Assembly: GCF_020662345.1 (NCBI RefSeq)
Contig: NZ_VMOA01000032.1
Coordinates: 1-64,000, forward strand
Origin: Methylobacterium sp. W2
GTDB lineage: Bacteria > Pseudomonadota > Alphaproteobacteria > Rhizobiales > Beijerinckiaceae
Direction of reading: 5' to 3'
DNA: 64,000 bases
Shown in pieces: positions 19,963-52,468 of this stretch. The position numbers and the translations under genes were made by a program. How positions within the stretch are numbered: position 1 is the first letter of the stretch; every line of letters starts with the position of its first letter. Under the pieces are notes generated by a model, which did not search any database, was not told the origin of the DNA, and saw only the letters and a program-made list of their open reading frames with translations.

Positions 19963-20173
19963 GCAGGGCTTCTTTCTTGTCGGCGAGATCACTTCGGCTG
20001 GCGCGCATCCCCTGTTCGGGGAGCGTGTCGAGGCGGCAGCCGGCGGTGAGGGGGCGCGTCCGGAGACGCCAAATCCTGAGAGCCCCCCTCACTATCGCTC
20101 CGACGTCGCCGTTACTCGCCATAGGGGCGGCAGGGTCCCTGCGGCCCTTTCCTCGCCCGGCGGCTGCTGAATT

Positions 20174-20364
20174 CACCCATCGGCTCGAAGGCCGTTGGCT
20201 CGATCCAAGAGAGTTCGACAGGAGGCGCGACGTGCTCCCTCTCCTGAAAGGAGAGGGTTGGGGTAAGGTGTGGTGCATCTCCGGAGAGGTCACACACCTC
20301 ACCCTGTCCCTCTCCTTCCAGGAGAGGGGACCCGAGCGGCCTACGAGATGTATGACTATCGTAG
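20174..20364 (+). repeat. Long-hairpin dispersed repeat, copy 1 (between lutB and lutC)
   Basis: The element runs from CACCCATCGGCTCGAAGG to GACTATCGTAG. Its core has two 21-nt arms, 20237-20257 and 20308-20328, which are reverse complements but for one base and are each self-complementary, flanking GGTAAGGTGT / ACACCTCACC. It can fold as one long hairpin or two small ones. A close copy is at 46464-46655 and a shortened inverted one at 52265-52385. Another inverted repeat (GTGAGGGGG / CCCCCTCAC, 20046-20092) lies upstream and may end lutB transcripts. Confidence 0.9.
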
Positions 20365-20431
20365 GCCCGGCGGGGAGGGGGAAGTGCGCAGCCTCGGCCC
20401 GGCAGGATCATCGTCGTTGGAGTGTCGGCCG

Positions 20432-21025
20432 ATGAGCGCCCGCGACGACACCTTGGCCCGCATCCGCAAGAATCGCCCCGCCGGGGATCATCCCCTGCCG
20501 CTGGTCCCGGATTTCGCGCCCTTGGTCGGCGACGATCTCGTGGCCGAGTTCGGCGAACGCCTGAAGCGCATGGGCGGGCGCATCGCGGTGCCGGTTCCGG
20601 GCGAGGACCCCTTCGCCGACGTGCGCGAGCGGCTGAACCACAGCGCGGTGATCGCCTCGGCAGTGCCGGAGATCGCCGGCAACCGCGATCTCTCCCAAGT
20701 GGCGTCGCCGGGCGATCTCGCCGATGTCGACGTCGCCGTCGTCCGCGCCGTGTTCGGCGTGGCCGAGACCGGGTCCGTCCTGTTCACGCAGGACGAGTTG
20801 CAGGTGAACGCGGTGGCCTATCTCGCCCAGCACCTCGTTGTGCTGCTCGATCCCGCCGACATCCTGGTCAACATCCAGGCAGCCTATCGCCGGCCGGATT
20901 TCGGCCGGGCGGCCTATGCCGTGCTCCATACCGGGCCGTCCGCCACCGCCGATATCGAGGGCGTGCTGATCCACGGCGCGCAGGGCGTGCGCTCGCTCAC
21001 GGTGATCCTGCTCCCCCGTGCCTGA
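20432..21025 (+). CDS. lutC: L-lactate utilisation protein LutC (LUD domain)
   Basis: The family-like start is ATG 20432 (MSARDDTLARIRKN), giving 197 residues; the longer frame back to 20270 runs through the repeat element. The LUD domain is recognisable by VVRAVFGVAETGSVLF near residue 110 and by the C-terminal ADIEGVLIHGAQGVRSLTV. LutC is the third subunit of the lactate oxidation complex and is related to the LUD part of LutB. It is separated from lutB by 469 bp, unusual for this operon, because of the inserted repeat. Confidence 0.9.
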   Translation: MSARDDTLARIRKNRPAGDHPLPLVPDFAPLVGDDLVAEFGERLKRMGGRIAVPVPGEDPFADVRERLNHSAVIASAVPEIAGNRDLSQVASPGDLADVDVAVVRAVFGVAETGSVLFTQDELQVNAVAYLAQHLVVLLDPADILVNIQAAYRRPDFGRAAYAVLHTGPSATADIEGVLIHGAQGVRSLTVILLPRA

Positions 21026-21174
21026 CAGGTCGGTGTCGGGTAGCGACGGGTGGGCTGCGCCTTCCCTGGCACTACCCCCGCGAACCGGCCGAACTCGGCC
21101 TTTCCCGCAGGATCCTTGTCGCCACGACGGGCGTAATCCTTGCTAGGACATCCCTAACGGAGGAAGGAACGTCC

Positions 21175-22035
21175 ATGCGCTACACGCTCGGCTGCAGCCT
21201 GTCTTACAACATACTCTCGGACACGACCTTCATCTTCAATATCGAAGTGGCTCGTTTGAAGAGCCTCGAGATCCTCAGCGAAACACTGACGCTCAAGCCG
21301 GACCTGAGGCGGGAAATCTACATCTCGCCCGACTTGCAGAACCGCTATCTCGGCGTGAACGTCCCAGCCGGCCAGTTTTCCCTGGAGTACAACGCCGAGG
21401 TCGAGCTCACCGTCCACCGGGCCGATCCGGCCACGATCAACGAGACGCCGATCTCGCAGCTTCCCCTCGACATCCTGCCGTTCCTGCTGCCGAGCCGCTT
21501 CGTCTCCTCCGACCGGCTGACGCCCTTCGCGCAGGCCGAGTTCGGGGCGCACCCCAAGGGACATCAGCGCGTCAACGCGATCTGCAACTGGATTCACGAT
21601 CACCTGACCTACCAGCCCGGCACCAGCGACGGCGAGACCACCGCCGACGAGAGCCTGCTCAAGCGCGCGGGCGTGTGCCGCGATTTCGCGCATATCGGCA
21701 CGGCCTTCTGCCGGGCCCTGGGCATCCCCGCCCGCTTCGTGAGCTGCTACGCCCACGGCCTCGTGCCGAGCGACTTCCACGCGGTGTTCGAGGCCTATCT
21801 CGACGGCCGCTGGTGGCTGTTCGATGCCACGCGTCAGGCCGATCTCGACGGGCTGGTCCGCATCGGCGTCGGCCGGGATGCAGCCGAGATCGCGTTCTCG
21901 ACGCCTTACGGCAACATGCAGCCGGTCAACCAGCAGATCCGCATCGCCCGCTCCGACGGCCTCGGCAGCCCGCCCCAGCGCACCGTGGACGCGATCTCGA
22001 CGGAGCTGCCGGCCCCGCATGCGGGTGCGGCGTGA
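21175..22035 (+). CDS. Transglutaminase-like (papain-fold) protein
   Basis: ATG 21175 follows a strong GGAGGAAGGA site and gives 286 residues; the open frame upstream is a shadow of lutC. An N-terminal beta-rich domain (residues 1-100) precedes the transglutaminase core. Catalytic residues are Cys168 in GVCRDFAH, His202 in SDFHAVFEAYL and Asp217 in WWLFDATR. Bacterial members usually act as proteases or amidases, often near circularly permuted ATP-grasp and alpha-E genes; those partners are absent here. No signal peptide is seen, so it is likely cytoplasmic. Substrate unknown. Confidence 0.87.
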   Translation: MRYTLGCSLSYNILSDTTFIFNIEVARLKSLEILSETLTLKPDLRREIYISPDLQNRYLGVNVPAGQFSLEYNAEVELTVHRADPATINETPISQLPLDILPFLLPSRFVSSDRLTPFAQAEFGAHPKGHQRVNAICNWIHDHLTYQPGTSDGETTADESLLKRAGVCRDFAHIGTAFCRALGIPARFVSCYAHGLVPSDFHAVFEAYLDGRWWLFDATRQADLDGLVRIGVGRDAAEIAFSTPYGNMQPVNQQIRIARSDGLGSPPQRTVDAISTELPAPHAGAA

Positions 22036-46301: not shown

Positions 46302-46463
46302 GCGCGTCCTTCCCCGGACGGGTGGAGCGCCAGCGGAACCCGATCCGGGGGCCAGCGAAAAAAGACGCGCAGTGCCCTGCTCCCGGCGGCACCGGGGGGA
46401 GCCGCTGACGCGGCACGCCTTGCGCCGGATCCCGGATCACCCGTCAGGGACGCCCACTGGGCT

Positions 46464-46655
46464 CACCCATCTGCTCGAAGGCGGTTCCTCTGTCCAGGAG
46501 GGTCTTCGGTATGAGGCGCGACCGGCTCCCTCTCCTGGAAGGAGAGGGCTGGGGTGAGGTGTGGTCCATCTCCGGAAGGGTCACACACCTCACCCTGTCC
46601 CTCTCCTTCCAGGAGAGGGGACCCGCGCATCCCGCGAGATGTGTGAATATCGTAG
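46464..46655 (+). repeat. Long-hairpin dispersed repeat, copy 2
   Basis: This is the most regular copy. Arms 46528-46548 and 46599-46619 (21 nt each) are exact reverse complements, and an inner pair GGGTGAGGTGT (46552-46562) / ACACCTCACCC (46585-46595) continues the stem, so a 92-nt hairpin can form. Each arm is itself a palindrome (CCCTCTCCT-GGA-AGGAGAGGG), so two small hairpins compete with the long one. Flanks match copy 1 from CACCCATC to ATCGTAG. Confidence 0.92.
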
Positions 46656-52188: not shown

Positions 52189-52264
52189 GTTGTTGCTGAG
52201 CCGGTCGTCGACGTCCGACGGACGGGACGCAGAGTGTATCGGCCTCCACCCGGTCCGCTTGAGG

Positions 52265-52385
52265 CTACGATAGTCACACATCTGGTGGGCACCACGGGTC
52301 CCCTCTCCTTCCAGGAGAGGGAGTGCGGTCGCGCGTCATGACGAACCCTCTTGGGTAGAGGGAGCAGCCCTCGATCAGATTGGTG
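52265..52385 (-). repeat. Long-hairpin dispersed repeat, copy 3 (inverted, shortened)
   Basis: On the minus strand the flanks match copies 1 and 2, from CACCAATCTGATCGAGGG to GTGTGACTATCGTAG, but the middle has only one CCCTCTCCT palindrome (52301-52321) and lacks the inner stem and second arm. This fits a deletion of about 71 bp by recombination between the two self-complementary arms. It lies 76 bp after ssb. Confidence 0.85.
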
Positions 52386-52468
52386 AATCCAATTGGTCGC
52401 TCACGGAGCGGACCGGCAGGTGCTCCCGAGACGTTTGTGGACCGCTATGAAGCGTTGGGCGTCTGCGA

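Follow-up and report, generated by a model that had tools for sequence, protein, structure and literature searches.

The feature at positions 46454–46655 is very probably a non-autonomous (MITE-like) DNA transposon of Methylobacterium that inserts into the loops of palindromes with 9–10 bp target duplications. The earlier note had suggested a non-autonomous mobile element, and this part of it is borne out by the many copies, the terminal inverted repeats, the 9–10 bp duplications and one empty site.

Overall structure of the element

The complete long-form element is 202 bp long and lies on the plus strand of the window, the whole stretch of 64,000 nucleotides that was analysed. Its boundaries are the inverted repeats CTAC..TTCACACATCT and AGATGTGTGAA..GTAG, and conservation drops sharply outside the terminal CTAC and GTAG (36 left and 35 right ends); the terminal inverted repeat pair is the one at L052 1491–1692. 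The left edge had earlier been placed at 46464, which is 10 bp short, as both the terminal inverted repeats and the conservation edge set the start at 46454. The left terminal inverted repeat (CCACTGGGCTCACCCATCTGC, 46454–46474, plus strand; family consensus CTACTGGATTCACACATCTGC) and the right one (GCGAGATGTGTGAATATCGTAG, 46634–46655, plus strand) are approximately 20 bp long and flank, in order and on the same strand, a left arm (46475–46527), part of which is predicted to fold into a side hairpin at the RNA level, the palindrome P1 (CCCTCTCCTGGAAGGAGAGGG, 46528–46548), an inner stem-loop (GGGGTGAGGTGTG..CACACCTCACCC, 46550–46597), the palindrome P2 (46599–46619) and a right arm. As the earlier note had described, the two 21-nt palindromes are exact reverse complements of each other, each is also self-complementary, and an inner stem is present between them; P1 and P2 each form a hairpin whose stem has 9 bp and whose loop has 3 nt. 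For 192 nt of the element the predicted fold is at −118.2 kcal/mol, whereas shuffled sequences average −78.9 (z −7.96) and none of 200 of them reaches so low a value. The element is short, non-coding and without a transposase gene, and 41 of the 67 elements with paired terminal inverted repeats are 130, 200 or 201 bp long. The pattern of the ends has 60 matches in the host genome, compared with 1 for the pattern read backwards. Rfam at the gathering score gave no match at the element, the sole match in the window being a tRNA elsewhere.

Copies in the window, the genome and the genus

A second long-form copy is found at 20164–20364 on the plus strand, with 85% identity to the focal element over 20174–20364; it is shared at this site by G061, G004 and G008 and is absent from G065 and G034. 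Two close relatives had been reported in the window, of which this one is a true long copy; the other, at 52265, is a short-form copy on the minus strand (52265–52395) with one palindrome only, and it is therefore unable to form the rod, the structure in which P1 pairs with P2 around the inner stem. The sites of the three window copies are referred to below as 46464, 20174 and 52265.

The further genome copies that the earlier note had proposed to look for are abundant. In the host genome (5.39 Mb in 125 contigs) 93 matches at E ≤ 0.001 represent at least 46 distinct rod places, each of them hit on both strands, and one 33-nt piece; with 40 of 82 candidates scored, the number of places is a lower bound. 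At least 15 single-palindrome places, the window copy included, match the short form on both sides of the palindrome (40 of 80 candidates scored). Palindromes with up to two mismatches number 124, compared with 2 for the reversed pattern. Among the matches listed for the exact core pattern, all of at least 105 stretches are titled Methylobacterium, and in a scan of 61 genomes, with at most 12 candidates scored per genome, the rod was matched in 24: 23 of 37 Methylobacterium genomes (host included) and 1 of 24 from other genera. The element also forms tandem arrays, at G000 C37:49631-50534, C45:1794-2443 and C71:112621-113406, with periods of 198 bp (C37) and 298 bp (C71); in the C71 array, copies of the element alternate with another rod type.

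Target duplications, an empty site and nested insertions

Among 90 unique elements with paired ends, which include some orthologues and one overlapping pair, exact direct duplications are present just outside the ends as a 9-mer in 8 elements and as a 10-mer in 7, compared with 0.24 and 0.13, respectively, expected by chance from mismatched copies. Exact duplications of any other length from 5 to 14 were never found more than once, and the signal is gone beyond a one-base register shift; a smaller earlier set of 67 elements gave the same picture. In approximately 75 of the 90 elements no duplication of 9 or 10 bp is exact, and the two flanks of the focal copy agree at about 7 of 10 positions.

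At site 52265 the element in G065 is flanked by CCGCTCACGG twice and lies within the palindrome GTCCGCTCACGGAGCGGAC. What corresponds to this in the window is, on the left (52249–52264), one half of the target palindrome and one duplication copy, which is decayed in the window genome and intact as CCGCTCACGG in G065, and, on the right (52396–52414), the other duplication copy and the other half of the target palindrome, of which G004 holds the single-copy, empty version (L213). In G004 the element is absent and one copy of a similar palindrome is found, and of four joins tried, its sequence is best fitted by the joined flanks of the window genome or of G065 minus 10 or 11 bp, with small score margins (54.5 versus 53.5 and 49.5 for the window genome's own flanks; 35 versus 34 and 32.5 for the G065 flanks). 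This supplies an orthologous empty site, a check that had been proposed earlier, for one site, in the short form and with a small score margin. At sites 46464 and 20174 the stretch missing from G065 is wider than the element and is not a clean empty site.

Insertion of elements into one another is seen in several cases. In G008 at 52265 a second element is found in the palindrome loop of the first, with CCTGCAAGG present twice. In Leaf99 one and the same 18-mer makes up 12 of the 38 listed ends, and P1 of some rods is occupied by a further element, with a duplication of CCTGTTTGGG in two copies and of CCTGGAAGG in one. The flanks are also more complementary within copies than between them: in 26 copies from the host genome, three of them from one tandem array, the within-copy score is 17.9 compared with 13.7 between copies (0 of 5000 permutations), and the joined flanks of the 90 elements have a folding energy of −18.87, compared with −17.59 (sd 0.42) after permutation (0 of 200). 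Ten pattern-selected copies from named genomes gave no within-copy flank excess (p 0.97 direct, 0.91 inverted). Several flanks, those of L003, L004 and L239 for example, repeat the loop in inverted and not in direct orientation, a pattern that looks like copying of the target palindrome through template switching, and such inverted flanks are not accounted for by simple target duplication.

A rod that also occurs without the ends

The rod P1-stem-P2 is a separate REPIN-like module that is found genus-wide, also without these ends. In M. gossipiicola, J-090, G001, G034 and other clades many rods stand alone, with approximately ten loosely conserved bases on each side. Allowing one mismatch, the end pattern is found at 38 places in Leaf99, at 5 in J-090 and at none in G001, G034 and G063 (M. 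gossipiicola). Conversely, the same ends enclose another rod in the elements at site 46464 in G004 and G061, and also in a 226-bp element of G008, which has one 90% match over nearly its full length in the host genome. The same end-bearing shell is thus found around different rods, and the same rod is found with or without the shell.

Long and short forms alternate at orthologous sites. At 46464 the window genome has the long form, G008 the short form, and G003 a short form with another mobile element nested in the palindrome and CCTGGAAGG on both sides of this nested element. The latter belongs to a second MITE-like family, with ends CAGGGCGATCGCA..TGCGATCGCCCTG, members of which also lie inside these palindromes at L210 (G003) and at L235 and L246 (Leaf99), with a part at L250 (J-090). 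At 52265 G003 has the long form and G065, G008, G061 and the window genome the short form, with the site-specific bases kept in both arms of G003. One neighbor-gene tree pairs G003 with G065 and leaves the others unresolved, and a second groups G003 with G065, G008 and G061. By parsimony, the rod appears to have been gained inside the single palindrome of G003 while the outer arms stayed, because one gain takes fewer steps than separate losses.

Alternative explanations

The double complementarity of the arms could mean that a transcript chooses between the 92-nt rod and two local hairpins and so controls a downstream gene, an RNA switch or attenuator of the kind to which the earlier note had pointed and to which we give very little credence. 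In its favor, in most copies each arm is complementary both to itself and to the other arm, P1 forms a local hairpin in prefix folds until P2 has been transcribed, and two of the window copies lie between same-strand genes (frame lists and Pfam). However, the rod is predicted at −84.5 kcal/mol and the clover, with two local hairpins and the inner stem, at −63.7, so an equilibrium switch between the two folds is unlikely at a difference of about 21 kcal/mol; the short copies cannot form the rod at all, and the genes beside the three window copies are unrelated to each other. The covariance check that had been suggested gave a divided answer in 34 copies, namely 23 thinned at 95% identity from 53 full-length copies and 11 of the 12 of other lengths (the truncated L049 was dropped). 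Pairing is kept in 95.4% of rod cells and in 96.7% of the local ones. For both folds, no shuffle out of 500 reaches the observed percentage paired, number of cells changed on both sides or covariation score, and slid partners give lower values. The number of pairs changed on both sides does not stand above the shuffles (rod 7 versus 5.4, 42 of 500 as high; local 2 versus 2.1, 497 of 500), and neither does the number of further pair types in these 34 copies (494 of 500 and 500 of 500 for the two folds). Changes on both sides fall mostly at four rod pairs (columns 13-93, 17-89, 18-88 and 38-68), which separate the same clades. Columns 17 and 89 are loop positions that pair in the rod only, which is what one would expect of a P2 that arose by inverted copying of P1, and such an inverted duplicate would explain the double complementarity; in some copies P1 alone is changed with its local stem kept. 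The arm changes in these alignments are compatible with either fold and neither single out nor support a regulated switch. Paired-change counts on all 183 distinct cores were set aside, as some of these copies had been picked by a pattern that fixes P1.

A quite improbable alternative is that the feature is a REPIN, in which a pair of inverted REP sequences is mobilized in single-stranded form by a RAYT (a Y1 transposase), and to which the arms and inverted ends would be incidental. The rod does have the REPIN plan of two inverted palindromes and a hairpin-forming spacer, single-palindrome forms occur as REP singlets do, and the same long hairpin and "clover" alternatives are drawn for REPINs in the parts of PMC3116915 that describe them. 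A Y1 transposase is matched in 5 of 59 genomes of the genus; none is matched in the window genome or in the rod carriers G001, G003, G004, G008 and G034 (of the Y1-positive genomes G015 and G017 have no rod match and G072, G077 and G079 lay outside the rod scan; G061-G065 lay outside the Y1 search). Target duplications of 9–10 bp and 20-bp inverted ends belong to double-strand transposition, and single-strand, IS200/IS605-like transposition is not known to make a target duplication. The duplications and the 20-bp inverted ends, measured here on elements with ends rather than on stand-alone rods, are therefore a misfit with the single-strand mechanism proposed for REPINs. The earlier designation as REP-like consequently holds for the internal rod, with its two inverted palindromes folding as one hairpin or a clover, and is at odds with the target duplications and with the search of the host genome, in which no RAYT-type gene was found. 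That the feature is instead a static structural repeat (a terminator, mRNA stabilizer or protein-binding site) spread by recombination and not by transposition is highly improbable; strong hairpins between genes would suit it, and the tandem arrays at C37 and C71 show recombination-driven amplification, but dispersal of a static repeat is contradicted by the defined inverted ends, the target duplications, the empty site and the nested insertion with its duplication.

Proposed mechanism and search for a transposase

For the MITE-like transposon, the inverted ends of about 20 bp (CTAC-N4-TTCACACATCT) would be recognized by a transposase supplied in trans, which would cut the loop of a hairpin-forming palindrome with a 9–10 bp stagger. 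Such a cut would leave the loop, with a few bases of its stem, duplicated on both sides (often as CC-N5/6-GG), as is seen around the younger copies, and the palindromes inside elements would themselves be targets, so that elements insert into one another, as is seen in several cases. The enzyme may read the palindrome as an extruded hairpin. The duplication length of 9–10 bp suggests a DDE transposase.

Among the ends listed for the window genome (in 125 contigs), four relatives and five further genomes, no end pair 0.4–4 kb apart was found with a transposase, an IS110-type passenger excepted, as judged by the distance between listed ends and by Pfam on six frames. Orphan MITEs as a class have no autonomous partner. 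Five long frames in two Leaf99 stretches with distant ends gave no Pfam match. The IS110-family insertion was rejected as the partner, the three 1.4-kb end pairs in G008 (L230, L231 and L232) being interrupted elements, and it is a passenger because its ends differ from those of the element. The one IS110-family protein scanned, from G008, matches PF01548 and PF02371. The left junction of the insertion follows CACCT in two copies and GCGCCT of the right arm in the third, and the right junction is CACCCC in all three; these junction sequences in G008 are a possible bridge-RNA target match.

A wider reading, tentative and rather doubtful as a whole, is that of a self-landing modular system, in which elements carry the preferred hairpin landing pads of their own family, insertion begets targets, and rods and end-bearing shells move partly independently. 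This would be a RAYT-free route to REPIN-like repeats, with extruded hairpins read by a transposase of the DDE type. Since duplications at its insertions, nested copies and an empty site all occur in one genus, the family makes it possible to test how REP-like palindromes spread where a genome has no RAYT gene, a question that to our knowledge is not settled. The element also shows that inverted duplication within a mobile element can yield, as a by-product, a transcript with two alternative folds that need not be a regulator.

Comparison with known systems

The bacterial MITEs ERIC, the Correia elements and QMITE2 of Coxiella are described in passages of PMC10969869 as non-coding, shorter than 500 bp and with inverted ends of about 20 bp, and by those passages they share with the present element direct repeats around younger copies, a strong predicted hairpin and shorter variants. 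In contrast to these MITEs, when set against their descriptions rather than their sequences, the present element targets palindrome loops, including those of its own kind, and has exchangeable hairpin rods. The REPINs or REP doublets of PMC3116915 resemble it, in the sections describing them, by their two inverted palindromes, a hairpin spacer, a long hairpin or clover and singlets; unlike these REPINs, it occurs in a host genome in which no RAYT-type gene was found, and its doublet is enclosed in an element with inverted ends and 9–10 bp duplications. Insertion sequences that target REPs, as named in passages of PMC1525189, include IS1397, ISKpn1, IS621, ISPpu9 and ISPsy8, of the families IS3, IS110, IS4, IS256 and IS5. 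An extragenic palindrome as the target is common to both, whereas the inserting unit here is non-coding and carries palindromes of the kind that it targets. Within the genus, MiniMdi3 of Methylobacterium extorquens, a MITE of about 400 bp related to ISMdi3, is likewise a non-autonomous element, with 4 and 8 MITEs tabulated for two strains in the part of PMC2680597 concerned; its length and its relation to ISMdi3 set it apart by description, not by sequence. No description of the present repeat was found in the open-licence literature, as judged by titles, the starts of abstracts and passages, and four sequence strings of the element had no occurrence in the open-licence papers searched.

Gene neighborhood of the window copies

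From the frame lists and Pfam, the copy at 46464 sits between an AMP-binding gene of the acetyl-CoA synthetase type and an FMN oxidoreductase gene, the copy at 52265 after an SSB gene that faces a HAD hydrolase gene, and the copy at 20174 between a LUD/LutB-type gene and the following same-strand frame. The latter open frame, at 20422–22035 of the window, matches a transglutaminase in its second half, and its start presumably resembles a LutC protein; a frame error or a fusion is possible.
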